Part shown: positions 15,590 to 63,699 of the stretch, in pieces | Layout of the letters: each line of letters opens with the position of its first letter | Position numbering within the stretch: position 1 is the stretch's first letter | IMG/VR virus record: IMGVR_UViG_3300047094_001064 | Location: 1-64,000 of that record | Direction: 5' to 3' (one strand) | DNA length: 64,000 nucleotides | Source: a virus | Notes under the pieces: model-generated | Seen by the model: the letters and a program-made list of their open reading frames with translations, nothing else | Database searches by the model: none | What the model was told of the DNA's origin: nothing | Program-made: the position numbers and the translations under genes

Positions 15590-15746
15590 GTTTTCTCCTA
15601 CCTTTTAACGCTAACAGTTTAAGTTTTTTTAATTGTTTTAGTCTTTTTAAATAGCGTTTTGTTTGACAAAAGATAGAGATGTAAATATATCCTAAACCAG
15701 CAATGATACTGGCAAGTATGATTAATCCTACGTATAGATGGTTCAT
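15579..15746 (-). CDS. 55-residue membrane protein with basic tail
   Basis: ATG at 15746 to TAG at 15579-15581. The N-terminus is one hydrophobic helix (LYVGLIILASIIAGLGYIYI) and the C-terminal half is strongly basic (KRYLKRLKQLKKLKLLALKG then RRKRGW). This topology, a single helix with a cationic cytoplasmic tail, is common for small phage membrane effectors. The ribosome site AAAGGG is buried in a predicted hairpin (15751-15772), so translation may be controlled. Confidence 0.5.
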   Translation of the reverse strand: MNHLYVGLIILASIIAGLGYIYISIFCQTKRYLKRLKQLKKLKLLALKGRRKRGW

Positions 15747-15750
15747 TTAT

Positions 15751-15791
15751 ACCCTTTGTTGTGTCAAAGGGTGCCTAGCTTCCTAGGCACC
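15751..15791 (-). promoter_or_regulatory. Two overlapping hairpins, one masking a ribosome site
   Basis: Hairpin one: GGTGCCTAG (15770-15778) pairs with CTAGGCACC (15783-15791), nine pairs with a four-base loop. Hairpin two: ACCCTTTG (15751-15758) pairs with CAAAGGGT (15765-15772), eight pairs with a six-base loop. They share 15770-15772. In the leftward transcript hairpin one forms first; hairpin two contains the AAAGGG ribosome site of the 55-residue membrane gene. The first could be a terminator for the acidic gene upstream, though its U tract is poor. Confidence 0.5.
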
Positions 15792-15808
15792 TGAAATATA
15801 GATTGTTA

Positions 15809-15964
15809 TTATTCTTCGTCTGTTTCGTCTATTTCTTCTTCTTCTTCATACGAAACACTTATCTTATCTTCTAAGTCGTATAATAAGTCGTCAATTTCAG
15901 ATTGCTTTTCTTTTATAGATTCAATGATATCTTCAGGAGTTACTATTTTCTTTTTTTTAGCCAT
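15809..15964 (-). CDS. 51-residue acidic protein
   Basis: I place the start at the ATG at 15964, which has GGAG six bases upstream; the longer open frame upstream of it runs across the promoter boxes and is not needed. The product starts MAKKKKIVTPEDIIESIKEK and ends in an acidic tail (EEEEEIDETDEE), with a helical middle (SEIDDLLYDLEDKI). It leads the leftward accessory operon behind a late box 26 bases upstream. Function unknown. Confidence 0.55.
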   Translation of the reverse strand: MAKKKKIVTPEDIIESIKEKQSEIDDLLYDLEDKISVSYEEEEEIDETDEE

Positions 15965-15989
15965 AAAACTCCTATGTTGTTGGCAATAG

Positions 15990-15997
15990 TATTTATA
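15990..15997 (-). promoter_or_regulatory. Late promoter box, leftward (accessory operon)
   Basis: The minus strand reads TATAAATA, 25-26 bases upstream of the acidic-protein ATG. It overlaps the rightward box at 15994-16001, making a palindromic TATTTATAAATA. Confidence 0.65.
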
Positions 15998-16001
15998 AAT
16001 A
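15994..16001 (+). promoter_or_regulatory. Late promoter box, rightward (fibre pair A)
   Basis: TATAAATA, 25 bases upstream of the ATG at 16027. It shares four bases with the leftward box at 15990-15997, so only one polymerase can bind at a time. Confidence 0.65.
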
Positions 16002-16026
16002 GTAGTGCTCAAATTAAAAAAGAAAT

Positions 16027-16692
16027 ATGGCATATAATCGTAGTCTTATAAAAATTAGCCCTAAAACATTTCCTGATCAATTTAGAAGTTCAGTAAATAG
16101 AGAAACGGGTAAAATACTAGACGAATTAGTTTTAATAGATTCAAGTAAATTATCTACTACAAATTTAAATTCATCAATTGATAATAAATTATCTGTAGTA
16201 GGAGTGGCTTCAACAATTATACCTACAACAACAGGTGTAAGTGATTTAGGAAGTTCAACTAAAAAATTCAGAGCTTTAAATTTAAGTTCTAATATTACTG
16301 CGGCAGGAACATTAAATACTTTTGGTACAGTAGAAATAAGTGGAAATACAATTCGCTCTACAGATACAACCTTATTAACTATAAATGATAATTTAACAGT
16401 TCAAGGCGCAGTGAATGCAACATCAGTTGTATCGTCAGGTTCAGTATCAGGAACAACAGGTGTTTTCAGTGGAGCAGTTTCAGGTACAAGTTTTACAGGA
16501 GCAGTTTCAGGTGCAGTTACAGGTAATGTAACAGGAAACGTATTAGGAAATTTAACAGGTAACGTAACAGGAAACGTACAAGGTAATTTAACAGGTAACG
16601 TAAATGCTACAACAGTAACAACATCAACGGCAATAGTAGGTGGTTCAAATATAAGATCATTTGCTGTGGCTATGGGTGTAGCACTATCATAA
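16027..16692 (+). CDS. Small repetitive fibre protein, pair A
   Basis: This 221-residue protein has an N-terminal lead (NRSLIKISPKTFPDQFRSSV), a 'TTTGVSDLGSSTKKFRALNL' segment common in phage fibre shafts, then low-complexity S/G/T/V strands. Residues about 166-192 are seven 'GN[VL]x' units. The C-terminus (RSFAVAMGVALS) resembles the end of the 25803-26477 product. Each small protein lies immediately upstream of one of two related giant fibre proteins, so the two sets look like a duplicated pair. Virion attachment or trimer shaft role is inferred. Confidence 0.6.
   Translation: MAYNRSLIKISPKTFPDQFRSSVNRETGKILDELVLIDSSKLSTTNLNSSIDNKLSVVGVASTIIPTTTGVSDLGSSTKKFRALNLSSNITAAGTLNTFGTVEISGNTIRSTDTTLLTINDNLTVQGAVNATSVVSSGSVSGTTGVFSGAVSGTSFTGAVSGAVTGNVTGNVLGNLTGNVTGNVQGNLTGNVNATTVTTSTAIVGGSNIRSFAVAMGVALS
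16522..16602 (+). repeat. Seven tandem 12-bp repeats coding GN[V/L]x
   Basis: Successive units of the form GGTAACGTAACA, with synonymous and conservative changes, encode GNVT GNVL GNLT GNVT GNVQ GNLT GNV. The unit length keeps the frame. Regular short-repeat beta turns are typical of fibre shafts, and the array can change copy number by slippage. Confidence 0.75.
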
Positions 16693-16701
16693 ATAATCAC
16701 A

Positions 16702-19700
16702 ATGGCTAAAACATTAGTAAAACAATATTCATTTACAAAAGGCGCAGTAGGAGTAGGAACAGTAAAAATTCCTGGTATCGTATCTCTAAATTCACTACTA
16801 TTAATTACTAACGTTACACGAAATATTATACTTTATAATTTTGCGGACTCTGCATTTACTGGAACTACAGTTACATATAGTAGAACAAATACTGATCCTT
16901 TTACAACTACATTAGATAACACAGATGGAATTACAACAATAACTTTACAAGTAGATACAACTGCACAAAACAATAATGATGTAATTCAAGTTTTTATAGA
17001 TAAGCCAGAAACTATTGTAAGACCTTGGGAAATGGGTACAGATGCATTTGAACGTACTCGTACAGCAAATCCTAAGTCAATGATTGACGCTGACTTTGAA
17101 TATGGATTACAACCTACTAAATGGCAGACAATAGATTTATTAAGAGGTTATCCAAGTATATACGAATTACCTGGAACAGACTTAGCAGTATCTTCAGTAA
17201 CAACTGATGCATCAGTTCCTACCTCAGGAGTAGGAGCAAGTTTAATTACAATTAACTCAGTTGGTAATCACGGATTTACAGTAGGAACACCAGTCTTAGT
17301 TAAAGGATATGCAAATACAATTTTAGGATTTAGTAGAGCAGAAGGTACATTTTTCATTAATTCTGTTCCAACAGGAAACAGTTTTACATATTACGCTAAA
17401 GCAAAAGTTGGTACAACATTCAATGAAGTTTTATCAACTACATATACACAAGTTAGGAGAGGTGGTTTATATACTGGTGCTACAATTGGAGTTCCCACAT
17501 TCACATATAGTAACGTTACATCTCCTTCTACAATTACAGTTACTTTTGCTACTGCTCACGGATTAGTTCCAGGAACAAGTCTTACAGTAACACAATCAAG
17601 TGACAATGGATCTAATAATCATACTTTAGCTTCTGGACCATTTTTTGTAGAAACAGTTCCTTCCACAACTACTATAACATATACTGCACGTGCAGCTGGA
17701 ACTATTACAGGAGTAATATCAGGAGCAGTTTATACTCGACCAGATTGTTTTTATATTCATAGACCTTTTGATGGTGGAGTTCAATTAGGTACTGGCGGTC
17801 CTCAACACGGAGCACAAGCTATTCGTCAAAGTAAAAAATATGTACGTTATCAATCAGGTAAAGCAATTAATTATAATACAGGTGCTCTTTTTGCTCCTGT
17901 TTATGATATTAGATCATTAACATCTACAGGAACAATTGTTGGTAGTACAGTAACATTAACAACTGATGACACAGATCACGGTTGTCAAGTTGGAGCACAA
18001 ATATCAATATCTGGAGTTACTACAAGTGGTTATAATGGAACATATATTGTTTCAGCAATAACTGATGAAAGAACATTAACTTTTTCAGCTACACAAACAT
18101 TAGGTGCAACGACAGCAGTTATTGGAAGTCCTTGTACTATGTCCGTATTAAATTGGCATGGTTCTACAGTTCGTGCAGGAACTTTTGATGATCAAAACGG
18201 AATGTTTTGGCAATATGATGGTCAACAAATGGCGTTAGGTAGAAGATCGTCAACATTTCAATTATCAGGTGTAGTAAGTGTTAACAGTGATTCAAATGCA
18301 GTTACAGGATCAAATACAAGATTTACTCAACAATTAGCAAATGGACAACGTATAGTAATAAGAGGTATGACACACGTTGTTGCAAATATTATTAGTGATA
18401 CTTCAATGACAGTTACTCCTGACTATCGAGGAGCCGTTAATGCTGTTGGTGTTAAAATATGTAAAACTATAGATTATATTATACCTCAAAATGAATGGAA
18501 TATGGATCGTTGCGATGGTACAAATGGTCCTTTCAATCCAAGTGGATATCTTTTAAAACCAGATAAAATGCAAATGATAGGTATGCAATGGACTTGGTAT
18601 GGTGCAGGATTTATAGATTATATGTTAAGAGGTCCAGAAGGTAAATATATTTTTGTACACCGTATAAAAAATTCAAATGTAAATACTGAAGCTTATATGA
18701 GAACAGGAAACATGCCTGTTCGTTATGAAGTTATAAATGAAGCTGCAGAATCAGAATTATCTAGTGCAATTAATAGTTCAGTAACAACTTTACCAATAAA
18801 CGATACAACTTATTTTCCTACTACTGGAACAGTATATATTGACAATGAAATTATTAGATACACAGGAAAGAGTACATCTACAGGACCTGGAAATTTAACA
18901 GGTTGTACAAGAGCAACAAATTTATCATTATTTACTGCTGGTAGTTTACGTTCTTTTACAGCTGAAGCTGCTGCTTCTCATAATATAAATGCTGGAGTTA
19001 TTTTAATAAGTCAAACTGCAACACCAATTATTAGTCATTGGGGTTCTGCTATGATGTCTGATGGTGGATTTGATGAAGATAGAGGATATATTTTTAACTA
19101 TCAATCTACAAACACAAGTATTAGCACAAGAAAAACATCAGCTTTTGCTATTAGATTAGCACCTACAGTATCTAATGCAATCACAGGAGATTTAGGAGTA
19201 AGAGAATTATTAAATAGAGCTCAATTATTACTTCAAGGTATTGAGGTTACAGCAGGAGGTAGTACGAATTTAAACTCAGCTCTTGTAATTGAAGGAGTTT
19301 TAAATCCACAAAATTATCCAACAAACCCTGCTTTAATTACTTGGAACACTTTAAACTCAGCAGCTTTTGGAGGACAACCTAGTTTTGCACAAATTGCTAC
19401 AGGAGCAAGCGTTACATTTAATAATACATTTTCATTATCTACTACTACTTCAGGAGCAGCGGTAGGTGCAACTACCATACCAGTAGCAAATACAACAGGA
19501 TTACAAATAGGTGATGATATTATTTCAACTTCTGTAACGAATGCTTTTGCTGGAAATACTCGTATTACAGCAATAAATGCTGGTACAAGTGTTGTGATTA
19601 GTGCTCCACTTATTACAGCTTTAACGGCTAGTGCCAATGTTACTTTTTTCCGTAATACTTATGCAGTACCAGGAGAAACTATTTTTTCATTTATTGCAGG

Positions 19701-45092: not shown

Positions 45093-45768
45093 TAAGTACG
45101 GACCCGAGTACGAAACCTATTTAGAAAAAAAATTACCAGAATACGAATTTATATGGTTAAGAGAAGCATATGATAGTAGAGTACTATTACAGTGGAATAA
45201 AATGTATGGTATGGCTTTAGATATTGATGAACCTATCTGTGTTATAGATATTGATATATTATTAATTAATGAATATAAAAAACTATTTGAGTATCCTATT
45301 AATCGTGGAGAATTTTTAGCAATCCCTGGTTGGTGGAGAGATACTAAAAAAGAAGGATATAAAATTAATGGTGGATTTTTTAAATACTATCCGAAAGATT
45401 GTAAATATATCTATGATAAGTTTATGTCAAATATTGATTACTGGCAAAATTATTATATTAAAAAGGGTGTTACCACTGGTCCTGTAAACGGCGAACAATA
45501 TTTTGTTGAAGATAGTGTTAAAGAAAAATTAACTTTAAAAACTATACCAAATTCTTGGGTTACACGTTGGGTATCGAATGATATTATTGTAAGTTCTGAA
45601 GATAATAAACAATGGCAAACAAAGTTAACAACAAAATATAAAACATTAACAGGCAATCAATACATATACTTAGGTGGCGAATTTCACAATGATATAAAAT
45701 TGGTTCATTTTACTCACGCCATAAATAAACCTACTGAATGGAAAGAATACACAAAATTTAATGACTGA
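45064..45768 (+). CDS. GT-A-type glycosyltransferase
   Basis: This 234-residue protein begins MKILAIRIGNKYGPEYETYL, then a long WNKMYGMALDIDEPICVIDI-DILL segment with D62-x-D64 as the metal-binding DxD. Acceptor-side features are the W-rich IPGWWRDTKK and GGFFKYYPKDC; the C-terminus has LVHFTHAINKPTEW, the 'vHftG..KPw' ending typical of the GT8/GT32-like phage enzymes. It overlaps the preceding gene by 29 bases and the following by eight. The product is likely a sugar added to a fibre protein or host glycan; not proven. Confidence 0.75.
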   Translation: MKILAIRIGNKYGPEYETYLEKKLPEYEFIWLREAYDSRVLLQWNKMYGMALDIDEPICVIDIDILLINEYKKLFEYPINRGEFLAIPGWWRDTKKEGYKINGGFFKYYPKDCKYIYDKFMSNIDYWQNYYIKKGVTTGPVNGEQYFVEDSVKEKLTLKTIPNSWVTRWVSNDIIVSSEDNKQWQTKLTTKYKTLTGNQYIYLGGEFHNDIKLVHFTHAINKPTEWKEYTKFND

Positions 45769-47077
45769 TAAAAAACAATTTAGCTCATTTGAAAATATAG
45801 AAAAAGATTTTGTTGATGAAACAGGTATTGAATGGTTTTGTCCCGAACCCTATGGTAATATTTACACTGAAACAACTGGTGAATATAAAGCGTGCTGTTC
45901 TGGTGCAGATTTTTATGATGTTAAAACTGATACACATACTCCTATTGAGGCAATGAATTGTAGTAAGGCAAAAGAATTAAGAAAAGCTTTTGTTACCAAA
46001 GATAAAAAAATATTAAACGAACATTGTCAAATGTGTATTGTACAAGAGAAAAGTGGTATAAAAAGTTCTAGGCAATATTCAATGGAACACTATGTTGATA
46101 ATAAAACTGGTTTTGATAGTGCAGTAAAAATAGCTAAACAAGTAAAAGAAGATCCTAAAATAGATATTAAGCCAGAGTTTTTTCATACAATGGAGCACTT
46201 GGCTGGAGGAGGTAATTTTTGCAACTTAAAATGTTTAATGTGTCACCCTTATAAAAGTTCTTCTTTTGCAAGTGAGGCTTTAGAATTGGGAGAAGATATT
46301 AGCGTATTTAATGTAACTAAACCTTTAATAAAACCTCCAACTAATAAAAAAGTTAATGATGAAATACAAGGTTATATATTAGAAAGGTTAGATGAAATAA
46401 AATTTACTGGTGGTGAACCATTAATGATACCTTACAATTATGAATTGTTACAAAAAGCTGTAGATTTAAAAACATCTTACAAACAAAATTTAAGAATTAT
46501 TACTAATGGTACAAATATTCCTAAAATGAAAGGTAAAGATATTTTTGATTATATACCTCATTTTAAATATGTTACTTTTAATATTTCAATAGAAGCTTGG
46601 GGAGTAAGAAATAATTATATAAGATATCCTAGTGACTTTAATGAAATTTTAGATAACGCAAATAAACTAGCAAATACTTTTTCTAACGTTAGTGTTTCTT
46701 TTGTATCTACGATCAATTCTCTAAACATAGGTTATGTAGATGATTTTTTTAGATATCCACCGTTAGTTAATAAAAAATTTAGACAACCTGTTATGTCCTC
46801 TTACGTATTGAAATGGGAAGATTTTAAAACTGACTCATATCACGGTATGAATATATCTTCTTTACCTTATGATATTAGAGAAAAATATTTAAATAGATAC
46901 TATACATTAGAATCTGATGTTGCTATAAAAATGAGACCATATATAAAAATATTAGAAAATAGAGATCATAATATGGACGATACTAAAATCTTAATTAGTA
47001 GATTGAAAAAACGAGACAAGTTAAGAAATACAAATTTTTTAGAAATGTGGCCAGAGTGGGAAAAGTACTATGTATGA
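45761..47077 (+). CDS. Radical SAM protein with N-terminal twitch-like domain
   Basis: This 438-residue protein has the radical SAM core: CNLKCLMC (C154, C158, C161, the CxxxCxxC 4Fe-4S ligands), FTGGEPL (215-221, SAM binding), then LRIITNGT and FNISIEAWG strands. The 100 residues ahead hold a cysteine-rich twitch-like domain (C27, C45, C46, C67, C89 and C92: 'CC..' and HCQMC), an arrangement I know as an N-terminal-twitch radical SAM protein in phages. The auxiliary cluster suggests peptide or other macromolecular modification. It is coupled to both neighbours. Confidence 0.82.
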   Translation: MTDKKQFSSFENIEKDFVDETGIEWFCPEPYGNIYTETTGEYKACCSGADFYDVKTDTHTPIEAMNCSKAKELRKAFVTKDKKILNEHCQMCIVQEKSGIKSSRQYSMEHYVDNKTGFDSAVKIAKQVKEDPKIDIKPEFFHTMEHLAGGGNFCNLKCLMCHPYKSSSFASEALELGEDISVFNVTKPLIKPPTNKKVNDEIQGYILERLDEIKFTGGEPLMIPYNYELLQKAVDLKTSYKQNLRIITNGTNIPKMKGKDIFDYIPHFKYVTFNISIEAWGVRNNYIRYPSDFNEILDNANKLANTFSNVSVSFVSTINSLNIGYVDDFFRYPPLVNKKFRQPVMSSYVLKWEDFKTDSYHGMNISSLPYDIREKYLNRYYTLESDVAIKMRPYIKILENRDHNMDDTKILISRLKKRDKLRNTNFLEMWPEWEKYYV

Positions 47078-51993: not shown

Positions 51994-54900
51994 ATGGCAG
52001 ATTTTATTTTAGGTCGTATTAAGTTTCACTTTGTTGGTGATTGGGTTACAGCATATTCATACATAAAAGATGATGTTGTAAGATTTGGTGGTAACGCTTT
52101 TGTTTGTAAAGTTAATCACACGTCTGCTGCAAGTTTTTATACAGATTTAAATTTTGCTACACCAAGATGGGCAAAAATGACAGCAGGTACCGAGTTCAAA
52201 GGTAACTGGACTGCAACAACAGTTTATAAACTTGACGATATTGTTAAATGGGGTGCTTACATATATATTTGTAACACTGCTCACACATCTCAAGCTAATT
52301 TATACCAAGATGAAGCCAAATGGACAATATACAATACAGGTTTTGATTGGAAAGGTAATTTTGCTAACGGTGTTGCATACAAATTAAATGATGTTGTAAA
52401 ATATGGACCTTCTTTATATATTTGTACAGACGATCATACTTCATCAGGTTCTGTAATTAATTTAACAAAATTTACTTTATTCGTTCCAGGATTAGAATTT
52501 GAAGATACTTGGAATGCAGGAACATCATATCAACCAGGAGATATAGTAGCTTACGGTGGTTATGTATATACAGCAATTTTATCAAATACTGGTGTTGTAC
52601 CTTATGCAAATACAGCAACTTGGGAAGTATTTACAACAGGATTTAAATTAGAAGGTATATTTAATCCAGCTACATTTTATAAAGTAGGAAGCGTAGTTAA
52701 ATTTGGTGGTGGCGTATTTGTTGCAATACAAAATACTACAGGCAATTCACCAGATCCTACATTTGGTGGTGGAGCTTATTGGGAACAAATCCAAGATGGT
52801 ATAAACTGGAGAGATACTTGGTCTGTAGGTCTTGATTATTTACCAGGAGATTCAGTATCATACGGTTCATCATCATATAGAGCAAAAGTTTCTCACACAG
52901 CTTCAAATGGTTCTGATAGACCAGATAATGATACAACAGGATTATATTGGGATTTACTTGCAGAAGGAGATTCAAATTTTGCATTAACTACAAGAGGAGA
53001 TTTACTAACACGTAATGCTTCTGTTAATACAAGATTAGCTATAGGTGGTTCAGGAACTTTCTTAAAAAGTGATGGAACAGATCCTGTATGGTCACATAGA
53101 ACAGGAACAACAAACGTATTATGGGTTGCACCTCACGGTACAGACGACACTGCAACTGCAAGAGGTTTATCTGAAGATAGACCATATTTAACAATTAGAT
53201 ATGCTGCGACAAGAGCATTAGCACTTGGAGGCACAGGAACAATTCACGTAAAAACTGGACAGTATAATGAGTTATGTCCTATTAGAGTTCCAGCTAACTG
53301 GTGTGTACTAGGAGAAGAATTAAGATCAACAAGAATATCACCTAATACTTCACAAGATTTAGGTTTTGGTGTAGGTATATCTGCAGATGGTTCTACACCT
53401 AATAATAGATCAAAAATGTTCTTAATGAATAATGGAACAGGATTAAGAAACTGTACATTAACAGGTATGACAGGAGTATTTAATTCTGCTGATGCTTATG
53501 GAACAGTTACAGTTGACGGAGGTCAATATGTAGCTTTTGATCCTGCTGGAGCAATTACATCTAAGTCTCCATATGTTCAAGGTGTTTCAACATTTGGTAC
53601 AAGATGTGTAGGAATGAGATTAGATGGTAGTGTACAAGCATCAGGTTATAAAACTATGGTTGCTAATGACTTCACACAAATATTAGATGACGGTATTGGT
53701 ATATGGGCAAGTAATAATGCTAGAGCTGAATTAGTTTCTGTATTTACATATTACAATAAAATAGGTTATCTTGCACAGTCTGGTTCAGTTCTGCGTGCTA
53801 CTAATGGTAATAACTCTTATGGAGATTACGGTAGCGTAGCTTCAGGATTTGATGCAACTGAAACTCCTTACACTGCAACAGTTAATAATAGAGATAATGA
53901 AGCACAAGTAGGAAGAACATTAATTGCAAACGGAGCTGTTTCTCGTTTAGAATTTTTATACGCAGGAGAAAATTATACAACTGCTTCATACACATTTTCA
54001 GGAACAGGTTCTGGTGCATCTGTATCAGGTACAACATTTGCTAATAACGGAGTAAAATATATTGATGTTGTTACAGGTGGAGCAAATCATAGAATAGCAT
54101 CGAGTTTTGCTCAAACAGGAAATACTACACAAATTACACTTACTGCATCTGATACTGCAAGTACAAGTAGTTACAATGGTATGAGAATTAACCTTGTAGA
54201 TGGAACAGGCGCAGGACAGACAGGTATAATTTCAACATATAATGGTGGTACAAAAGTTGCAACTATAGTTGATGAAGCAGGTAATCCGGGTTGGGATACT
54301 TGGACAGGTGCTTCAGTTGTTGCTACTTTAGATACAACAACAAAATATGAAATAGAACCTAGAGTTAGAATTAATGGTGGTGGACCTACAAATACTGCAA
54401 AAGCTAGAGCTGTTGTAGAAGGTGGAGCTATAGTAAGAATATATATTTTAGATTCTGGTTCAGGATATGTATCAACTCCAAGTGTTGTAATTACAGATCC
54501 AAATGCAACTGTTTTAGGAACTGGACAAGTAGTTTTAGGTTCAGGTGTTATTAGAACTGTTGCTTTCTCATCAGGAGGAAGTGGATTCGAACAATTATCA
54601 GCTGCTACAACAGTTGCTGGTGATGGTTTTGCTGAAATTAAACCTATAGGTTCTATTGTAAAAATTGCAGGATTATCACAAGAGCCTAGACCTGGTGCTT
54701 CTTTTCAGTTTGCTGGTGATTCTATTACAAATTACTTTGTTGTTTCTGTAGGAAGTTATACACCCAATTCAGTAGGTGGTGGTGGTGGAACAGCTCAATT
54801 AAGTGTATCTCCTTCAATTGTAAAATCTGTTTCTCCTAATCACGCCGTAACAGTTACATTTAGAGAAAGATATTCAAACATTAGATTAACAGGTCACGAT

Positions 54901-55668
54901 TTTTTAAATATAGGAACAGGCGGATTTACTAGTACAAATTATCCAGGAATTCCAGCTATTGCTCCTGATCAAACTAAAGAAGTTGAAGAAAGAAATTTAG
55001 GTAGAGTATTCTATACAAGCACAGACCAAGATGGTAATTTTAGAGTTGGTAGTTTATTCAGAATTGAACAGGCAACAGGTATTGCAACTTTAAATGCTGA
55101 AGCTTTTGATTTAACAGGATTATCTGAAATTTCTCTAATACCTATTTCAGGATTTTCAAGTGTAGTTGAAGAATTTTCTTCAGATGGAACATTAGTTGCT
55201 AATTCAAATAGTAAATTACCTACACAACAAGCTGTTAAAACTTATATTGATACACAACTTGGAGGTGGTGGTAACGATTTAGTTGTTAACAGTGCAAGAG
55301 CAGGATTAGTTAGAATTACAGGTGGAACAATATCAACTTTTGATGGTGGTTCTGCTTCATTAAATTTATCTATAGAAACTCAAGGTGCTGGAATAATTAC
55401 ATTTAACGATCAAACTCAAATTGGTATAGTTCCAAGTGCAAATAATGATATCACAAATAAATCATATGTTGATGATAATGCTACTGAATCATTACAAACT
55501 TTAACAATTACAGCTAATAATGAAATTCAATCAGCAAAAATAACAAACTACAACAGTGGTGCACAAAATGTTGTAATAGAAAATTATGATACTTCTTCTC
55601 TAATAAGCAAAAACACGTCTATGAGTGTAAACGCTAATGGAAGACTTATTATAACATTACCCCTATAG
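51994..55668 (+). CDS. Large fibre with six carbohydrate-binding-like repeats and a beta-helix
   Basis: Residues about 1-325 hold six tandem repeats of about 50 residues: 'F.GnW...t.Y...DiVk.g...Y.c...HTs....' (for example FKGNWTATTVYKLDDIVKWG and WKGNFANGVAYKLNDVVKYG), similar in pattern to chitin-binding type 3/CBM5_12 modules. Next comes a right-handed beta-helix (LWVAPHGTDDTATARGLSED, TIRYAATRALALGGTGTIHV, SNNARAELVSVFTYYNKIGY), typical of fibres and depolymerase-like proteins, with a 'GSGYVSTPSVVI' module and 'DQDGNFRVGSLFRIEQATGI' conserved close. It finishes with an AVKTYID-type shaft. Sugar binding is inferred. Confidence 0.75.
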   Translation: MADFILGRIKFHFVGDWVTAYSYIKDDVVRFGGNAFVCKVNHTSAASFYTDLNFATPRWAKMTAGTEFKGNWTATTVYKLDDIVKWGAYIYICNTAHTSQANLYQDEAKWTIYNTGFDWKGNFANGVAYKLNDVVKYGPSLYICTDDHTSSGSVINLTKFTLFVPGLEFEDTWNAGTSYQPGDIVAYGGYVYTAILSNTGVVPYANTATWEVFTTGFKLEGIFNPATFYKVGSVVKFGGGVFVAIQNTTGNSPDPTFGGGAYWEQIQDGINWRDTWSVGLDYLPGDSVSYGSSSYRAKVSHTASNGSDRPDNDTTGLYWDLLAEGDSNFALTTRGDLLTRNASVNTRLAIGGSGTFLKSDGTDPVWSHRTGTTNVLWVAPHGTDDTATARGLSEDRPYLTIRYAATRALALGGTGTIHVKTGQYNELCPIRVPANWCVLGEELRSTRISPNTSQDLGFGVGISADGSTPNNRSKMFLMNNGTGLRNCTLTGMTGVFNSADAYGTVTVDGGQYVAFDPAGAITSKSPYVQGVSTFGTRCVGMRLDGSVQASGYKTMVANDFTQILDDGIGIWASNNARAELVSVFTYYNKIGYLAQSGSVLRATNGNNSYGDYGSVASGFDATETPYTATVNNRDNEAQVGRTLIANGAVSRLEFLYAGENYTTASYTFSGTGSGASVSGTTFANNGVKYIDVVTGGANHRIASSFAQTGNTTQITLTASDTASTSSYNGMRINLVDGTGAGQTGIISTYNGGTKVATIVDEAGNPGWDTWTGASVVATLDTTTKYEIEPRVRINGGGPTNTAKARAVVEGGAIVRIYILDSGSGYVSTPSVVITDPNATVLGTGQVVLGSGVIRTVAFSSGGSGFEQLSAATTVAGDGFAEIKPIGSIVKIAGLSQEPRPGASFQFAGDSITNYFVVSVGSYTPNSVGGGGGTAQLSVSPSIVKSVSPNHAVTVTFRERYSNIRLTGHDFLNIGTGGFTSTNYPGIPAIAPDQTKEVEERNLGRVFYTSTDQDGNFRVGSLFRIEQATGIATLNAEAFDLTGLSEISLIPISGFSSVVEEFSSDGTLVANSNSKLPTQQAVKTYIDTQLGGGGNDLVVNSARAGLVRITGGTISTFDGGSASLNLSIETQGAGIITFNDQTQIGIVPSANNDITNKSYVDDNATESLQTLTITANNEIQSAKITNYNSGAQNVVIENYDTSSLISKNTSMSVNANGRLIITLPL

Positions 55669-55709: not shown

Positions 55710-58457
55710 ATGGCAATTACAACTTCAATTTTAGGAAATTTACAGTTTAGATATAGAGGTACTTACAGTGGTGCCACAGCGTACATAATTGATGATGTTG
55801 TAGATTTTAATGGTACAGAATATGTTTGTACTCAAAATACAACAGGTAATTCGCCTACTGCAAATCCTGAAACAAAAGCCAGAGTTACTGTATCAGGATC
55901 TACGTTTTTTATCAATGGTACAACAAATCCTATTTTGAATGAAAAAAGAGGAGAAAAAATTATATTTGATCAAGATGATGCATCAAATGCCAATCACGTA
56001 TTACAGTTTGCTACAACAAGTACATCTCAAACATCAAATTACTATACAACAAACGTATCTTATTTTTTAAATAATGTAAACGTAACTGAAACTGTATATA
56101 GAAATACTACAACTTTTAATGCTGCATCAAGAAGAAGAATTGAAATAACATTAGATAGTACTGCTCCAAGCACTCTTTGGTATTTTTCAAATGCTGGTGG
56201 TGCAAGTTATGGTAATTCAATTGCAATTACAAACGTACTTTATTGGAAACCATTAAGATATGCTTTTAATTTTAGAGGAAATCATAATAATACATCAACA
56301 CTATATAGAGTTGGTGATGTTGTAAGAGTAGTTCCTAGAGTTAATAATAATAATCAAACATATATGCCAGGTCAATTTGTTGATTCTGAAGCATTTTATA
56401 TTTGTACTGAAGAACATACATCAGGAGGAACAGATACATCTTTACCTCAAAACAATACAAATACAAACAAAATTAATAACAAATGGAATTTATTAGAATC
56501 AGAATATGATTATGATGATAATTCATTTACTGTTAGAGGAGATATTTTAACTGTAACAACATCTACAGCAGCAAATGCTTTAAGAACTGCTGGTACATAT
56601 ATGGGAGTTCAAGGAACCGCATCAGGCTCTCCAACAGATCCAGCGTTATTTGATATAATAGTTGCACCAACTACTGGAGCAATTTCTTTAGTATCTGTAA
56701 GTTGGGGTGGATTAGGATATGCAGAAGGTGGTACAGTAACTATTACTGATGCCAATTTAGGAGCAGGTGGCGCACCTAACGTAGTATTAGACATCACTTC
56801 AGTAGGAAAATATGTAAGAGGTCAAAATGCTATGTTTACAGGTAATCATAGAGACTGTATTGCATTAGCTAATAGAGATGGTGTTATAGGACAGAATGAA
56901 AGATGGTATAGAAAATATGGACATCACAATGGAAAAAACGTTGTTGATTGGCCTTGTTTTATTGATGGTTCAGGAGGAATTAAAACTTGGGGTTCTACAT
57001 CTACAGGTCAAAATGGAGTTATAAGTGCACAAAGAGTTGCAACAAGTATGTGTTTTACTTTCCACGATTGGTACAGAAGTACTGATAATGGTGGTACGGG
57101 TATACACACAACACCAGATGGACAAGTTCCAAAATGTATTCAATTAGAAGCTGGTTATAGTAGTGGTATGGCTTTATTCAACAATGGAGAAGTTTACCAT
57201 TGGGGTTATGGTGGTCACGGTCAACACGGAGATGCTTCAACAACAGATAGAGCATATCCTGTACGTGTAGGTGGTACATACGGTAACGTATTTGGTGCAG
57301 CTAATACAGCAAACCATACTTTTTTAAATACTAAAATTGTAAAAATTTGGATTTCAAATAAATATTCTGACGACACAACTACTCACACTTGTTATGCTTT
57401 AGATGATACAGGTGGATTATGGGCTTGGGGTTATAACTTGTACGGACAGTTAGGTGATAACAGTACAACAAATAGAAGTCAACCTCAACTAATTAATAAA
57501 ACTTCATATTTTAATGGAAATAATATTGTAGCTTTTTGGACTGCTGGTGGCGCATATGTACATTGTATGGCATTAGATAATGCAAATAGATTATATGTTT
57601 GGGGTTATAACGGTTACGGACAATTAGGCGATAACAGTACAACTCAAAGAAACGTTCCTGTAGAAATTACATCTCCACTGTTTACTGATGCTGGTGTTGG
57701 AAAAATTGCAAAAGTTTTAAAAGATGACCACGGTTCATATGGTAGAACAGCAATTTTAACAGACAAAGGTAGAGTATTTGGTTGTGGTTATAATGCTTAT
57801 GGTTGGATGGGAAATAACAACACTACACAATTAAATATATTAACTCAAATTGGTTCTGGCGTAGGTTCAGCTTCCAATCCAACTTGCGTAAATATGTGGT
57901 TTACAGGAAATGGTCAATACCATTCAATGTTTACTAAAGCTTTAAATGGAACAATTTCTGCTTATGGTAGAAATAATAATTTTCAATTAGGTGATACTAC
58001 ATCTACTGATAGAACAGTTGCAGTAACTCCTAACTGGAGAATTAGAGGTACAAATTATGCATTAAGAGATGTTAAGTGTATATCTGGACATTCGTCTGGT
58101 GATCATCACCGAACATACGTATTAACTAATTCTGGTTGGTTATTTGTAGCTGGAAGAAATAATTTTGGTTGTTCATCTATGGGGTTCTCATCAACTTATG
58201 TGCATGACAGAAGTAATCCTAATGGTATAGAAGAAAGTACATCACAAGTATTTCAAATACCTAGAATGATGAACGATATGCAAGGTAATATAGAAGATGC
58301 ACAAGGTTTTGGATACGGTACATCAAACGTATATTTCCGTACAGAAGTAAAAACAAAAGACAATAGATATATGAGTTCTGGTTATTCTGGTTCACAAATG
58401 AGTGGACACAACAGTAACCCTAGTGAAACACAATTTCAACCACCTAACTTAGGATAA
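55710..58457 (+). CDS. RCC1-propeller fibre protein 1 (915 residues)
   Basis: The N-terminal module FRYRGTYSGATAYIIDDVVD is the same aromatic carbohydrate-binding-like unit as in the upstream fibre. A beta domain follows with FLNNVNVTETVYR. From about residue 430 the protein has RCC1-type blades: 'GEVYHWGYGGHGQHGDASTT', 'LWAWGYNLYGQLGDNSTTNR', 'LYVWGYNGYGQLGDNSTTQR' and more degenerate ones to the end. The G-Y-x-G-x-x-G-Q-L-G-D motif is diagnostic of RCC1/BLIP-II blades. Seven-bladed propellers bind proteins; here a receptor-binding tip is inferred. Confidence 0.8.
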   Translation: MAITTSILGNLQFRYRGTYSGATAYIIDDVVDFNGTEYVCTQNTTGNSPTANPETKARVTVSGSTFFINGTTNPILNEKRGEKIIFDQDDASNANHVLQFATTSTSQTSNYYTTNVSYFLNNVNVTETVYRNTTTFNAASRRRIEITLDSTAPSTLWYFSNAGGASYGNSIAITNVLYWKPLRYAFNFRGNHNNTSTLYRVGDVVRVVPRVNNNNQTYMPGQFVDSEAFYICTEEHTSGGTDTSLPQNNTNTNKINNKWNLLESEYDYDDNSFTVRGDILTVTTSTAANALRTAGTYMGVQGTASGSPTDPALFDIIVAPTTGAISLVSVSWGGLGYAEGGTVTITDANLGAGGAPNVVLDITSVGKYVRGQNAMFTGNHRDCIALANRDGVIGQNERWYRKYGHHNGKNVVDWPCFIDGSGGIKTWGSTSTGQNGVISAQRVATSMCFTFHDWYRSTDNGGTGIHTTPDGQVPKCIQLEAGYSSGMALFNNGEVYHWGYGGHGQHGDASTTDRAYPVRVGGTYGNVFGAANTANHTFLNTKIVKIWISNKYSDDTTTHTCYALDDTGGLWAWGYNLYGQLGDNSTTNRSQPQLINKTSYFNGNNIVAFWTAGGAYVHCMALDNANRLYVWGYNGYGQLGDNSTTQRNVPVEITSPLFTDAGVGKIAKVLKDDHGSYGRTAILTDKGRVFGCGYNAYGWMGNNNTTQLNILTQIGSGVGSASNPTCVNMWFTGNGQYHSMFTKALNGTISAYGRNNNFQLGDTTSTDRTVAVTPNWRIRGTNYALRDVKCISGHSSGDHHRTYVLTNSGWLFVAGRNNFGCSSMGFSSTYVHDRSNPNGIEESTSQVFQIPRMMNDMQGNIEDAQGFGYGTSNVYFRTEVKTKDNRYMSSGYSGSQMSGHNSNPSETQFQPPNLG

Positions 58458-58460
58458 ATA
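58453..58460 (+). promoter_or_regulatory. Variant late promoter box for the second RCC1 fibre
   Basis: GATAAATA, one base from the late consensus, overlapping the stop of the preceding fibre and four bases before the next ATG. The short spacing again predicts a near-leaderless transcript. Confidence 0.35.
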
Positions 58461-58464
58461 TAAT

Positions 58465-61080
58465 ATGGCAACTATAGATGTAGGACGTATAAAATTATCA
58501 CTTCAAGGTGATTGGAGTAATTCAACAGTTTATACTGTTGGAGATATGGTTTTATTCAAAAATAAAATATGGATTTTAAAAAGAGCTTACACTCCTAACA
58601 GTTCTACAAACTATGCTCCAGGTACTAAGTCTATGGGGCACCAAGAATTTATTTCTAAAGAAGATTTATTAACACGTACAAGTATTGGTGATTACGATTT
58701 ATTTTCTGCTACTCAAAATTTAGGGCCAGGAAATACTAATGAAGAAATTGGAGTAAATGACGAATATTTAACTATTAATGACGATCCTAGATTTGCATAT
58801 AACTATAGACAATTTAAAAATACACATTCTGTAAAAGTTACTGGAACTACACCTAACTTTAAATTTGTAATAGATGGTGTTACTGCTAACATAGGATCTG
58901 CTTTACAATTATTAGAAGGTGAAACTTACGGTTTTGAACAACACGATCAAACGAATTATCTAATGCCTTTAAGCTTTAGTTTAGCAGCAGAACCGTCAGC
59001 AGTAAGTATGTTTGCTACAGGTAATGTAAAATATTTTTTAAATAATACTGAAGTAACAGAAACATTTTATAGAACACAATTTGCAACTGATGCTCTTTTT
59101 AGAAAATCTGCACATAGACGTGTAGAATTAACAGTTCCAATTGGAAGTACGATTATATATCCATTTAATAATACTTACACTGCTTCTTATAACGGAACAG
59201 GAATTTCAGTAACTAAATCTTGGGAAGGTTATTTGTATTGGGACGAAGTACAAACAACTTTAAGATATAGAGGAGATTGGAGTTCTAATATTCAATACTA
59301 TCATAATGATTTAGTAACAATAAAAAATTATCCTACACATAAATTATTTGCTGCTCCAAGTCCTAATAGATTATTAACTATGGGTTCAGAATTATATAGA
59401 TGTTTAGTTGATAATATAGATTGCGCTCCTGTTCGAGGAACAATGGAAAAAACTAGATCGCCATTAATGACAGCGGCAACAACAACATCAGGAAGATTGT
59501 CTAGTAACGTAAATAGCAGACAAACAAAGTGGGAATCTTTTTCAGGAGATACAGAAAATAACGCAGCTGCGTGGTTTCCAAACCAAGGTCCTATAGCTTG
59601 GCCATATAAACATCATACTTGTAATGGTGCAAACGTTTATAGATTAATTAAATACATTGATAAAAATGGAACGGTATGGGTAAGAGGTGGGGGTTCTGAT
59701 GGAGATACAGCAAACGGAGATGGTAACGTAATATCTTTCTTTAGCGAAATTTGTTTTAAATTTAGAGAGTGGGACGATTCAGAAGATAGAAATAGAGGCG
59801 GATTTCAGGAACGCAGAGGAACAAAATATACAAGACACGGAAACGTTCCTAAATGTATTCAAATGGAACAAGGATATGGACACACTTTATACTTATTTGA
59901 TAATGGAGAAGTAAAACATTCAGGATACGGCGGACACGGACAAAATGGAACAGGTAACTTTACTAGTTATAACCAGCCTACAAACATAAATGGTTTAGAG
60001 CACGTAAGAATAATAAAAGTTGCTATGAATATAACACAAGAAGATACTGCTCATACTTGTATGGCATTATCTGAAGATGGTGACGTATATACTTGGGGTT
60101 ATAATCTTTATGGTCAACTTGGTTTTGGTAGAACAGAAAACTGGGCTTCTGCTAGAAAAATACCTAGAGAATATTTTGGTAATAGAAAAATTATTGATAT
60201 AGCTATAAGCGGTAATGCTGAAGCTGCTTGTTTTGCTAGAACTTCTGATGATAATATTTATGCTTGGGGTAGAAATAACAGCGGTTGGTTGGGAACAAAC
60301 GATACAACTGATAGATACAGACCAAATTTAATGCAAGGTTGGAACCCATCTGCAAATGGTGGAATTAGAGTGTTTCAAGTTGCTGGTTACGGTAGCAATG
60401 GTGTTGCATATATTTTAGATGGTAATGGTTTTATTTGGAGTTGTGGTTATGGTGGTATGGGAAATAGATTTTCTGGTAACACTTCCAACGTAAATACTTT
60501 TACACAGGCAACTGGTACACCAGGTGGTGACATAGTTGATATATGGGCTGTACATTGGAATTCTTATCATAGCACATTTGCTAGACTTAAAAACGGAACT
60601 ACTTATTTTGCAGGAGCTTCACGTACATATTACGTAGGCGCAACAGGTGCAACAGGTGATACTACTACACCAGCATTATTAAATGCTAAAATGAACAATT
60701 TAAAAGAAGTACATATTTTAGGTACTACTAGTGATGTTGCAACAGCTTATTATTTATTTGATAATGGTAAAATGCTAACACAGGGTTATGATAGTTATAA
60801 TAGTTTACCAAATCCTTTTGCAGGTAGTAACTACACTGGAGAAGATGGAACATTTTTACCTTTTCACGCATATGTACCAGCAGGAACTAGAATTACATCA
60901 ATATGTGGACAAGGTATATGGCAATCAACAAACTATTTTGGTATGATAAGTTTTTTAGGAACTGAAAATGGTCAATTATTTAGTTGGGGATATAGTGGTA
61001 ATTATGTTCACGGTAGTAATGATTGGAATAACGGTGGAGATAACGGCGGAATTATGACCCAAGGTGGTCAAGGAAGATAA
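58465..61080 (+). CDS. RCC1-propeller fibre protein 2 (871 residues)
   Basis: The N-terminus has LSLQGDWSNSTVYTVGDMVL, again the aromatic module, and a second copy LRYRGDWSSNIQYYHNDLVT at about 268. The domain with YFLNNTEVTETFYR matches that in the preceding protein. RCC1 blades follow: 'GEVKHSGYGGHGQNGTGNFT', 'DVYTWGYNLYGQLGFGRTEN', 'NIYAWGRNNSGWLGTNDTTD', with looser blades to the C-terminus. It is a paralogue of the preceding gene (shared N-terminal module, YFLNN domain and blades), probably from tandem duplication. Confidence 0.8.
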   Translation: MATIDVGRIKLSLQGDWSNSTVYTVGDMVLFKNKIWILKRAYTPNSSTNYAPGTKSMGHQEFISKEDLLTRTSIGDYDLFSATQNLGPGNTNEEIGVNDEYLTINDDPRFAYNYRQFKNTHSVKVTGTTPNFKFVIDGVTANIGSALQLLEGETYGFEQHDQTNYLMPLSFSLAAEPSAVSMFATGNVKYFLNNTEVTETFYRTQFATDALFRKSAHRRVELTVPIGSTIIYPFNNTYTASYNGTGISVTKSWEGYLYWDEVQTTLRYRGDWSSNIQYYHNDLVTIKNYPTHKLFAAPSPNRLLTMGSELYRCLVDNIDCAPVRGTMEKTRSPLMTAATTTSGRLSSNVNSRQTKWESFSGDTENNAAAWFPNQGPIAWPYKHHTCNGANVYRLIKYIDKNGTVWVRGGGSDGDTANGDGNVISFFSEICFKFREWDDSEDRNRGGFQERRGTKYTRHGNVPKCIQMEQGYGHTLYLFDNGEVKHSGYGGHGQNGTGNFTSYNQPTNINGLEHVRIIKVAMNITQEDTAHTCMALSEDGDVYTWGYNLYGQLGFGRTENWASARKIPREYFGNRKIIDIAISGNAEAACFARTSDDNIYAWGRNNSGWLGTNDTTDRYRPNLMQGWNPSANGGIRVFQVAGYGSNGVAYILDGNGFIWSCGYGGMGNRFSGNTSNVNTFTQATGTPGGDIVDIWAVHWNSYHSTFARLKNGTTYFAGASRTYYVGATGATGDTTTPALLNAKMNNLKEVHILGTTSDVATAYYLFDNGKMLTQGYDSYNSLPNPFAGSNYTGEDGTFLPFHAYVPAGTRITSICGQGIWQSTNYFGMISFLGTENGQLFSWGYSGNYVHGSNDWNNGGDNGGIMTQGGQGR

Positions 61081-61086
61081 TAAATA
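61079..61086 (+). promoter_or_regulatory. Variant late promoter box before the 61.1-kb gene
   Basis: AATAAATA, one base from the late consensus, overlapping the stop of RCC1 fibre 2. It lies 15 bases upstream of the ATG at 61102, with AGGA in between. Confidence 0.35.
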
Positions 61087-61101
61087 ACAATAGGATAATT
61101 T

Positions 61102-61521
61102 ATGGCAAATCAAATATTTCAACTTAAAAACATATCAATAGGTGATGATTATATTCACCCTACTTTAAAAGAAGGAAAAACTGTTTACAATATACAATAT
61201 TTACATTCAAATAATACTCACGCATTCTTTTCTTTTAATCCAGAAGATATAACTATAAAAACTGATGGAATTAATTTAAGTAAGTATGATGTAAAAATAT
61301 TAGATAAAACTGATGAAGATAATGCAGAAGTATTAAATTTTATAAAATCTAATTCACAATATATTAAACTTGCAATTGTTGATATTGAAGCTAAAATATC
61401 AGCTAAATATTCTTTAGTAACTTTATTTTCTAAAATTGCGGCTAATGATTTAACTGTTAAATCAGAATTAGCAGCAAACCAACAAGAAAAAGCAGATTTT
61501 ATTACAGGACTAGGATTTTAA
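61102..61521 (+). CDS. Hypothetical protein between RCC1 fibres (139 residues)
   Basis: This protein has FQLKNISIGDDYIHPTLKEG, KTVYNIQYLHSNNTHAFFSF and a helical C-terminal third (LFSKIAANDLTVKSELAANQ). Small soluble proteins beside fibre genes are often fibre-specific assembly chaperones, as with T4 gp38/gp57; that is an inference from position and size only. No motif recognised. Confidence 0.45.
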   Translation: MANQIFQLKNISIGDDYIHPTLKEGKTVYNIQYLHSNNTHAFFSFNPEDITIKTDGINLSKYDVKILDKTDEDNAEVLNFIKSNSQYIKLAIVDIEAKISAKYSLVTLFSKIAANDLTVKSELAANQQEKADFITGLGF

Positions 61522-61530
61522 ATAAAAAAA

Positions 61531-63699
61531 ATGTCAACTATAGATATATCAAAAGTAAAATTAAAGTGGAAAGGCAAGTGGAGAGCTCGACAACAATATT
61601 TTAAAAATGATGTTGTTCAGTGGATGGGTAAATCTTTTAAATGTATAAAAGATACTCCTATTGAATTTGTTATTAGATCTAGTTCTAAAGTATCTTCTGG
61701 TAACTTTTCTTTTGATCCTCCTCAACTTGTAAGAAGAAGTTATAGACCAGAAAATCCTAAGTATTGGTCTTTATTTGTTAGAGGAACTGACAGAATTAAA
61801 TTATGGAATTGGTTGAAACAATATTATCCAGGAGAAATGGTACGAGTTAAAGGTGAAGTATTTTTATGTACTAATACAACAAGATATAAAAATACATATG
61901 TAACTGAAACTAATTATTGGACTAAAATTTATCAATCTCCTAAAACTGCAAAGTATAGACACGAATCAATAATGTTTTGTAACCGTGCTCCATTAGGTTG
62001 GAAATATAATATGGGAGAAAATCAGTGGGGTGGTGGTGATATGGGTTATAATACTACTGTTATTAATACTGACGGAACTTCAATGTGTATTGGCGGACCA
62101 GATTCTACATCAAGGAATGGTAGAGGTGCAGATGGTGTTGGTGGCTCTCAACAAATGGGAAAACATCAATATACAAATTTTACTTTTGTTGATTGGTTAA
62201 CATCAACAGATCAATCTTCTTGGCAAACACAAGACAACACTGGAAAGTTAACTACTCCGGATGGTAAATGTCCTAAAGTAATTCAAATTGCAGCCGGGTC
62301 TGATACAACTCTTTGGTTAATGAATAATGGTGAAGTATATTCATCAGGATTTAATACTCAAGGTCAATTAGGTATTTCTAATACAACAAATTACGCTTAC
62401 ACAAATAGAGTTACAGCATCTGATACTACTGATTGGAATGGAAACACTATACCAAATACTTTTAACCAAACAAAAATTGTAAAAGTTGGTATTACAAATC
62501 AAATGCAAACATCAAGTACTTCTTCTTGTTTCGCATTAGGAGAAGATGGTTCTGTTTGGGTATGGGGACATAATAACCAAGGTCAATTAGGATTAGGTAA
62601 TCCTGGAGTAAACAACTCAGCTGATGCAAGTGGTTTTTATACATCAAATCAAACAAGACCTAGAAGAATATGCCAAGATTTATTTGATGGAAAATTTATT
62701 ATTGATATGTGGTGTAATGGTTCTGGTTCAGGAAGATTTTGGGCACTTGATGAAGAAGGTAAATTATGGGCTTGGGGTTATAACCAATATGGAGAATTAG
62801 GAGTTGGACATAGAGATGGTACTTACTATGTTTATCACCCAATGCCAGTTACAGTAGATTTTAAACAGTATGGTGGCGTTAAAAAATTTATGACAGTTTG
62901 TAATGACGCAGGTGTTACAACAACTTATGTTTTAGATCACGAAGGTTGGTTATGGGCCTGTGGTTATACAACAGCTGGTTCAGTTCCTGGAGCTGTACCA
63001 ACAGGAGGTACATCTACATTACAATGGGGTGCATTTAGAAGATTAGACTTTTATATGAATGGTGATATTGAAGAATTTTGGGTAGGTGGTGATGAATCAC
63101 AATGGTGTATTATAAGACAAAAAAATTCAGATTTAGTTTGGCAAACAAACGGTAGATATTCTAACGGATCAGATGGTGCTGGTGTTCAACAATCTTCTTA
63201 TTGGTATACTTCTGGTGGACAAGCAAACTCATTTAACGTTATAGATGGTCCTAGAGGTTGCAGATTTGCTGCAGGTCATTCTGTAAGTAGAGTAGATGCT
63301 TCTCAACAATGGGCGGATCCTATTATATTTGATGACGATGGTGTTATGTGGGCCGGCGGAAGAAACTATTATGGTTTTTCATCATTAGGATTTGATGGGG
63401 CAAACGATACTGAATGGGCAGATGGGGGTCCTCATTCTCCAGATCAAGATATGAATGATAATGAATATAACTTTAATAAAAAGCGTAAACTTTTTGTTCA
63501 ATCAGGTTTGTCAATCGTAGATATTCACGCATTTGGTTTTGGTTCAGCTACTATGTTTTGCTGGAGAGATGAAGCAGGTAAAATATTATTTGCTGGTTTC
63601 GATGGAACAGCTGCTACTTCTTATCAGTACAATAGATCCAGTGTTGTAGCAAGTGATGTTCGACATAGACATTTTATGCATAGTGGACCAAACGATTAA
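61531..63699 (+). CDS. RCC1-propeller fibre protein 3 (722 residues)
   Basis: The N-terminus LKWKGKWRARQQYFKNDVVQ is the same aromatic module, here with a different linker (about residues 1-150). RCC1 blades: 'GEVYSSGFNTQGQLGISNTT', 'SVWVWGHNNQGQLGLGNPGV', 'KLWAWGYNQYGELGVGHRDG', 'WLWACGYTTAGSVPG', and a late 'VMWAGGRNYYGFSSLG'. The protein lacks the YFLNN domain of the first two. As the last gene of the fibre run it may be the most distal tip. Function as an adhesin is inferred. Confidence 0.8.
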   Translation: MSTIDISKVKLKWKGKWRARQQYFKNDVVQWMGKSFKCIKDTPIEFVIRSSSKVSSGNFSFDPPQLVRRSYRPENPKYWSLFVRGTDRIKLWNWLKQYYPGEMVRVKGEVFLCTNTTRYKNTYVTETNYWTKIYQSPKTAKYRHESIMFCNRAPLGWKYNMGENQWGGGDMGYNTTVINTDGTSMCIGGPDSTSRNGRGADGVGGSQQMGKHQYTNFTFVDWLTSTDQSSWQTQDNTGKLTTPDGKCPKVIQIAAGSDTTLWLMNNGEVYSSGFNTQGQLGISNTTNYAYTNRVTASDTTDWNGNTIPNTFNQTKIVKVGITNQMQTSSTSSCFALGEDGSVWVWGHNNQGQLGLGNPGVNNSADASGFYTSNQTRPRRICQDLFDGKFIIDMWCNGSGSGRFWALDEEGKLWAWGYNQYGELGVGHRDGTYYVYHPMPVTVDFKQYGGVKKFMTVCNDAGVTTTYVLDHEGWLWACGYTTAGSVPGAVPTGGTSTLQWGAFRRLDFYMNGDIEEFWVGGDESQWCIIRQKNSDLVWQTNGRYSNGSDGAGVQQSSYWYTSGGQANSFNVIDGPRGCRFAAGHSVSRVDASQQWADPIIFDDDGVMWAGGRNYYGFSSLGFDGANDTEWADGGPHSPDQDMNDNEYNFNKKRKLFVQSGLSIVDIHAFGFGSATMFCWRDEAGKILFAGFDGTAATSYQYNRSSVVASDVRHRHFMHSGPND

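Follow-up and report, generated by a model that had tools for sequence, protein, structure and literature searches.

Three co-inherited genes for RCC1-type propeller proteins behind the tail fibre gene of a pelagimyophage-related virus: probable parts of a tail-tip adhesion module

SAR11 bacteria are among the most abundant bacteria of the sea, and we know of no account of how their large phages recognise them. In this study, we have explored a stretch of viral DNA of 64,000 nucleotides (hereafter the window), which belongs to an IMG/VR virus record 65,139 bases long and in which a tail fibre gene (F) is followed by three genes for proteins with RCC1 repeats (P1, P2 and P3). The locus raises the question of what three such proteins do behind a fibre, and whether they serve together or in place of one another. 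The features on which the argument rests are these:

51994..55668, plus strand: F, tail fibre protein of 1224 aa, directly upstream of the P1-P3 set, homologue of Mosig_00063
55710..58457, plus strand: P1, RCC1-propeller protein of 915 aa (ORF; Pfam RCC1 PF00415, E 9.4e-20)
55746..55874, plus strand: N-terminal CBM5/12-like module of P1, aa 13-55 (module profile, E ~1e-12, precisely 1.5e-12)
55872..56198, plus strand: YFLNN domain of P1, ~aa 55-163, with similarity to part of a baseplate wedge family (phrog_708, E 5e-15)
56841..58454, plus strand: propeller of P1, aa 378-915, with seven full blades and a predicted degenerate blade at the N-terminus (model, blade profile)
58465..61080, plus strand: P2, RCC1-propeller protein of 871 aa, paralogue of P1 (ORF; PF00415, E 1.8e-15)
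58501..58626, plus strand: N-terminal module of P2, aa 13-54 (module profile, E 2.6e-5)
58837..59184, plus strand: YFLNN domain of P2, ~aa 125-240 (profile alignment; limits set by eye)
59617..61077, plus strand: propeller of P2, ~aa 385-871 (blade profile with seven repeats, the first at aa 459; profile alignment to P1)
61102..61521, plus strand: 139-aa protein between P2 and P3 (ORF; position kept in most loci)
61531..63699, plus strand: P3, RCC1-propeller protein of 722 aa, paralogue without the YFLNN domain (ORF; PF00415, E 2.9e-18)
61561..61656, plus strand: N-terminal module of P3, aa 11-42 (module profile, E 5.9e-7 to 6e-9)
61948..63696, plus strand: propeller of P3, aa 140-722 (model, blade profile)
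63726-64304 and 64270-64953 of the record: heme oxygenase, then ferredoxin-dependent bilin reductase, directly after P3 and partly beyond the end of the window (15726-16953 in locus L036)

A preliminary description of this DNA had placed three adjacent RCC1 proteins at 55710-63699. The open reading frames fit that span exactly, and all three products, encoded on the plus strand, exceed the curated Pfam cut-offs of PF00415 and PF13540; strict adjacency holds for P1 and P2, and the 139-aa frame separates P2 from P3. The RCC1-like-domain model PF25390 also reaches E 1e-28 to 1e-42 on the three proteins, yet stays below its own cut-off, and all of them match PHROG 4219. In profile-profile comparison, P1 and P2 align nearly end to end (E 1.9e-102), and P1 aligns with P3 over 569 columns from the second module onward (E 1.4e-76); by these alignments all three proteins are paralogues. 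That the first two are a pair and the third differs was thus correct for the pair; P3 is a paralogue as well and, since it lacks the YFLNN domain, differs mainly in that respect. For the 139-aa protein, a chaperone or a small part of the virion would be our guess. It has no significant match to Mosig_00061, and it diverges fast (median dN/dS 0.518 over the wider divergence range, 0.23 among close pairs).

As judged by its genes, the record is a T4-like marine myovirus related to the pelagimyophages. By the baseplate protein gp8, the nearest isolate is Pelagibacter phage Mosig (65% identity, with 51% to HTVC008M and 46% to OM43 phage Melnitz). The bilin reductase is 68% identical to its Mosig counterpart, three tail genes upstream of F resemble Mosig genes at 74, 60 and 62% identity, and F matches Mosig_00063 in two stretches at 38-47%. 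Because of these resemblances, SAR11 or a comparable streamlined bacterium of the sea is the probable host. F itself contains five CBM_5_12 modules (Pfam PF02839, E 1.2e-24, five stretches) and matches the tail fiber family phrog_9851 (E 1e-195). The P1-P3 region, which follows it, lies between a VrlC-sized protein (phrog_358) and the heme oxygenase and bilin reductase, described in passages of PMC11480375 as a pigment-synthesis pair of marine phages of the PcyX/PcyA type; this pair also lies 3' of P3 in many related loci. Passages of PMC7029224 present the stretch from VrlC to the neck genes as the hypervariable host recognition cluster of pelagimyophages, and the main text of that paper has zero occurrences of RCC1, chromosome condensation or propeller. 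The variable region that precedes the fibre genes also encodes a radical SAM-like protein (window 45761-47077; phrog_14086, E 5e-12).

Two features tie P1-P3 to the fibre cluster. The first is the module at their N-termini, which the preliminary description had rightly taken to be common to the three proteins and the upstream fibre: a profile built solely from the modules of F and of its Mosig homologue matches P1, P2 and P3 within residues 11-55, clear of the 90 shuffled sequences used as controls (best control E 0.024), so that each protein begins with a module of fibre type. In the Pelagibacter podophages HTVC031P and Eistla, moreover, the gene next to that for the tail fibre, on its 3' side, encodes a protein whose N-terminus shares 58% identity with the module of P1. 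The second is position, as P1-P3 stand in the tail-fibre cluster at the slot that an adhesin-like gene takes in Mosig. Behind its fibre gene, Mosig encodes a 516-aa glycine-rich protein; then come a small gene, several genes of metabolism, those for heme oxygenase and bilin reductase, and the neck genes. The glycine-rich protein, Mosig_00062, matches Pfam Gly_rich_2 (PF21722, E 4.4e-13), as does gp065, encoded where the fibre cluster of HTVC008M ends (E 6.7e-18); in Melnitz-2 the tail region is different. Among the best 80 of 353 loci fetched with the Mosig fibre, a choice biased towards Mosig-like fibres, the fibre was followed by a glycine-rich gene in 44, by another gene in 21 (several of these truncated where the contig ends), by an unreadable one in 15 and by an RCC1 gene in 0, whereas in the RCC1 loci the gene after F is P1. 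Some Mosig-like fibres are followed by a gene that is not glycine-rich and whose start resembles the N-terminal module of P1-P3 by eye (L178 6035-6895, L181 5371-6216, L183 5386-6207). The glycine-rich protein of Mosig is only presumed to be an adhesin; by analogy, it may work like the T-even tip adhesin Gp38, and gp38 of phage PP01 is described as a receptor-binding protein of the tail fibre tip in PMC12892980.

The propeller fold was approached by repeats and by structure models. P1 and P3 served to build a blade profile, from which P2 was left out; it recognises seven full repeats per protein, in P1, P2 and P3 alike, and a further, degenerate N-terminal repeat that stays below significance (iE 6.3, 0.49 and 8.4, respectively). 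Single-chain models were made for P1 and P3 from 15 and 17 aligned sequences, and the fold of P2 is read from the profile. The P1 model (mean pLDDT 74, and 84-94 over most of blades 2-5) has UVR8 as its best solved match (Z 26.9, rmsd 4.1, 353 residues), with HERC2 at Z up to 26.7 and human RCC1 at Z 20.5. The P3 model (mean pLDDT 63) is best matched by HERC2 RLD2 (Z 22.0, rmsd 4.1, 319 residues), and bacterial BLIP-II reaches Z 13.4; on these models, P1 and P3 have an RCC1-type propeller fold. Eukaryotic RCC1, UVR8 and the HERC2 RLD, like bacterial BLIP-II, are seven-bladed, and seven blades had also been claimed for P1-P3. Each protein does have seven full repeats, but the claim is doubtful, and an eighth blade is probable in the P1 and P3 models, because seven-bladed RCC1 structures fit the P1 model at either 378-807 or 473-915, and ODA16, TBLR1 and the designed Ika8, which we take to be eight-bladed propellers, span ~374-894; this assignment comes from fold-match ranges in a model region of pLDDT 38-77. 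Three BFVD entries, I3ULP3, I3ULP0 and I3ULP2, match the P1 model at ranks 1, 2 and 26; their UniProt accessions are nearly consecutive, and they may represent a deposited triad.

The three genes travel together. We used 73 of the 74 fetched loci, leaving out the incomplete L017. P1, P2 and P3 occur in this order in 55 of them (in 48 away from the ends of the locus, in 7 close to an end), and the rest comprise one locus with P3 split, one with P2 split, the two divergent loci L114 and L115, and 14 cut by a contig or locus end. Where the whole stretch is present, three RCC1 genes were found in 59/59 loci and the P1-P2-P3 order in 57/59, and none of these 59 loci had only one or two of the three. 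The split frames (P3 in L045, 15822-17989; P2 in L106, 12014-14295) reflect either a sequencing error or a broken gene. In L114 (9419-17316) and L115 (9998-17629), three RCC1 genes are likewise present; the first alone belongs to the P1 clade, and the later two are not clear orthologues. As many contigs are near copies, rows were reduced at 90% identity to 33 for P1, 30 for P2 and 28 for P3, window included. In a tree made by a quick method with SH-aLRT support, P2 forms one clade (100), 31 of the 33 P1 rows another (96) and 26 of the 28 P3 rows a third (96), and the rows that fall outside the P1 and P3 clades come solely from L114 and L115. Pairwise distances of P1, P2 and P3 correlate with one another at r 0.985-0.991 (42-51 loci), and the values are lower between P1-P3 and F (0.957-0.962), between P1 and heme oxygenase (0.930) and with bilin reductase (0.88-0.90); permutations reached the observed value in 0/500 cases in every comparison, which cannot separate co-function from shared ancestry and leaves the ranking as the informative part. 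On these sequence comparisons, P1, P2 and P3 are inherited as one unit. Outside these loci, a tblastn search of 50,697 phage records for a cultured phage with the triad gave no match over at least 80% of P1 (E 1e-5) or of P2 (E 1e-3), no match to P3 at E 1e-5, and none over 80% of the query for the divergent relative in L115. The RCC1 relatives in isolated phages share ~24-35% identity with the queries and may do something else than P1-P3.

What is directly established for P1-P3, namely the genes, the fold class, the shared N-terminal module, the fixed order, the co-inheritance and the different gene at the slot in Mosig-like phages, is the starting point of our proposal. We consider it probable that P1-P3 are three non-interchangeable parts of a constant tail-tip adhesion module in a T4-like, pelagimyophage-related clade. 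The N-terminal module would dock each protein on the fibre or baseplate, and the single RCC1-type propeller of each would face outward, as a head that binds protein or glycan. The set would fill the slot that the glycine-rich, adhesin-like protein holds in Mosig. The three proteins would be made and used together, not singly, and would be carried in the virion, where they would bind the surface of the putative SAR11 host. A putative tail-fibre or adhesin role draws support from context, domain fusion, replacement at the slot and virion precedents in other phages. A bolder version of this proposal would assemble P1, P2 and P3 into a 1:1:1 hetero-oligomeric fibre tip, a pseudo-threefold heterotrimer of eight-bladed propellers that recognises a composite receptor on marine bacteria and is exchanged as a block against glycine-rich tips; phage fibre tips are usually homotrimers, and we regard this version as rather doubtful.

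The selection data bear on the proposal from the other side. Over pairs at dS 0.02-0.35, which share ancestry and are not independent, median dN/dS was 0.25 for P1, 0.21 for P2 and 0.24 for P3 (74, 72 and 75 pairs), after removal of end-open frames, low-scoring matches and short frames (the 850-aa limit for P1 excludes lineages of 700 aa). For F, heme oxygenase and bilin reductase, the corresponding medians are 0.19, 0.11 and 0.07. In P1, the loops stand at 0.19-0.27, the strands at 0.15-0.38 and the N-terminal modules at 0.23; an earlier run on more distant, partly saturated pairs gave no loop excess either, and gene-wide values for P1-P3 were 0.25-0.68 when the window was initially set against L001, L002 and L027. 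P1-P3 evolve faster than the enzymes and carry no diversifying signature at the level of gene averages and of P1 structural classes. Hypervariable blade loops had been expected; the loops of P1 change no faster than its strands or N-terminal modules, and the expectation finds no support at this level. Conserved blades free of diversifying selection are also one half of the outcome that the preliminary description had itself put forward as speaking against its reading; the other half would be absence from virions, and relatives of P1-P3 in other phages do occur there.

Purifying selection with no excess in loops counts against the adhesin reading, as a receptor arms race predicts otherwise, and it suits what we see as the main rival. 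On that view, P1-P3 would act as joints or spacers in the structure of fibre or baseplate, and another protein, for example F or an upstream fibre, would bind the receptor. The strict conservation of all three genes, as a fixed set across divergent phages, fits such parts too, as do the shared N-terminal modules and the kinship of the YFLNN domain with a baseplate wedge protein. Against this, P1-P3 occupy the place of the glycine-rich gene of Mosig-like phages, and in phages PollyC and SeaP2 the protein at the tail-fibre position has an RCC1 region as its C-terminal half and an N-terminus of T7-fibre type (PF03906 at E ~6e-5, just below the cut-off, and tail-fibre PHROGs to E 6e-67). We judge a purely structural role to be unlikely, though it is the alternative to be reckoned with first.

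The same data are harder on the idea, put forward in the preliminary description, that P1-P3 provide alternative or multi-receptor adhesion through variable adhesins for different receptors. Paralogous propellers, three of them within a short stretch, do invite it, and the adhesin part draws support from context. The alternative part does not survive well: tight co-inheritance and the lack, among the 59 complete loci, of any with fewer than three RCC1 genes mean that several parts used together fit better than alternatives, and dN/dS of ~0.2-0.25 with loops no faster than the rest is not the pattern of variable adhesins; we hold this idea to be improbable. Slightly less probable still is that P1-P3 are polysaccharide-degrading tail enzymes, a thought that arises as some phage propellers are endosialidases according to passages of PMC4901313; a Pfam search at E up to 0.1 matched P1-P3 to no enzyme family, and by fold the P1 and P3 models come closest to RCC1-type propellers.

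Returning to the tail-tip adhesion module that we favour, RCC1 proteins of other phages provide precedents of two kinds, tail context and virion presence. In S-SRM01, Jenst, BUCT-ZZ01 and phiCDIF1296T, the RCC1 genes adjoin fibre, adhesion, baseplate or tail genes or lie within a few genes of them, and in GAP32 the RCC1 gene adjoins one for a virion structural protein; in a Helicobacter prophage record, the gene labels around RCC1 were uninformative. Virions of coliphage W70 contain three adjacent RCC1 proteins, W70_237-239 of PHROG 4219 (passages of PMC11370258), the RCC1 protein GAP32_001 was found in virions (passages of PMC5259590), and several RCC1-like "DNA condensation proteins" are reported from phAPEC6 virions in passages of PMC7247149, whose authors suggest a role in ordering the packaged DNA. 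That P1-P3 act within the capsid to condense or order DNA, as the family name, that proposal and the presence of RCC1 proteins in phAPEC6, GAP32 and W70 virions would have it, is the least credible reading of all, since the proposal argues, in those passages, from the known eukaryotic interaction with DNA, and the fibre N-terminal modules and fibre-cluster position of P1-P3, with the fusions to T7-type fibre N-termini elsewhere, argue for the tail instead. PHROG 4219, 7220 and 16766 are categorised under DNA, RNA and nucleotide metabolism, though several of their members are tail-fibre fusions or tail neighbours. Our findings suggest that many phage proteins labelled "regulator of chromosome condensation" belong to the tail and that the database label is misleading.

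Seven-bladed propellers had been called unusual as receptor-binding tips, which holds in part: passages of PMC4901313 list phi11 Gp45, PRD1 P2, endosialidases and phiKZ gp131C as receptor-binding proteins or putative ones with propellers. Propeller receptor-binding proteins and RCC1 proteins in virions are already known. In open-licence PubMed Central, we found no paper on RCC1 propellers as phage receptor-binding proteins and none on the triad. Passages of PMC12923769 describe beta-propeller lectins in fibres of contractile injection systems, with no RCC1 in them, passages of PMC4909266 and PMC9004378 contain nothing on RCC1 function, and "RCC1" in those of PMC5723332, PMC10218006 and PMC11409702 is a strain name or locus tag. 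The triad offers three specific candidate proteins for host recognition by SAR11 phages and a natural either/or comparison of propellers with glycine-rich tips at one genomic slot.

Set beside known systems, P1-P3 share the slot after the fibre with Mosig_00062; that protein and HTVC008M gp065 are unrelated to them in sequence, and one gene stands there against three. With RCC1, UVR8, the HERC2 RLD and BLIP-II, the P1 and P3 models have the fold class in common, but they appear to have an eighth blade, and P1-P3 come with no GTPase or chromatin context. phiKZ gp131C (seven-bladed, 4GBF) and phi11 Gp45 (a five-bladed receptor-binding protein) likewise carry a propeller on a phage baseplate or receptor-binding protein; by the description in passages of PMC4901313, they are propellers of other types, and they are single genes as opposed to a triad. 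Closest are the RCC1-like proteins of other phages (PHROG 4219, 7220 and 16766; PollyC and SeaP2, W70_237-239, GAP32_001, phAPEC6), which have RCC1 repeats as P1-P3 do, with tail context or virion presence, and of which W70 even has three adjacent genes, as in the triad; P1-P3 differ from the proteins of these PHROGs in their CBM5/12-like N-terminal modules and in forming a fixed set of three genes.
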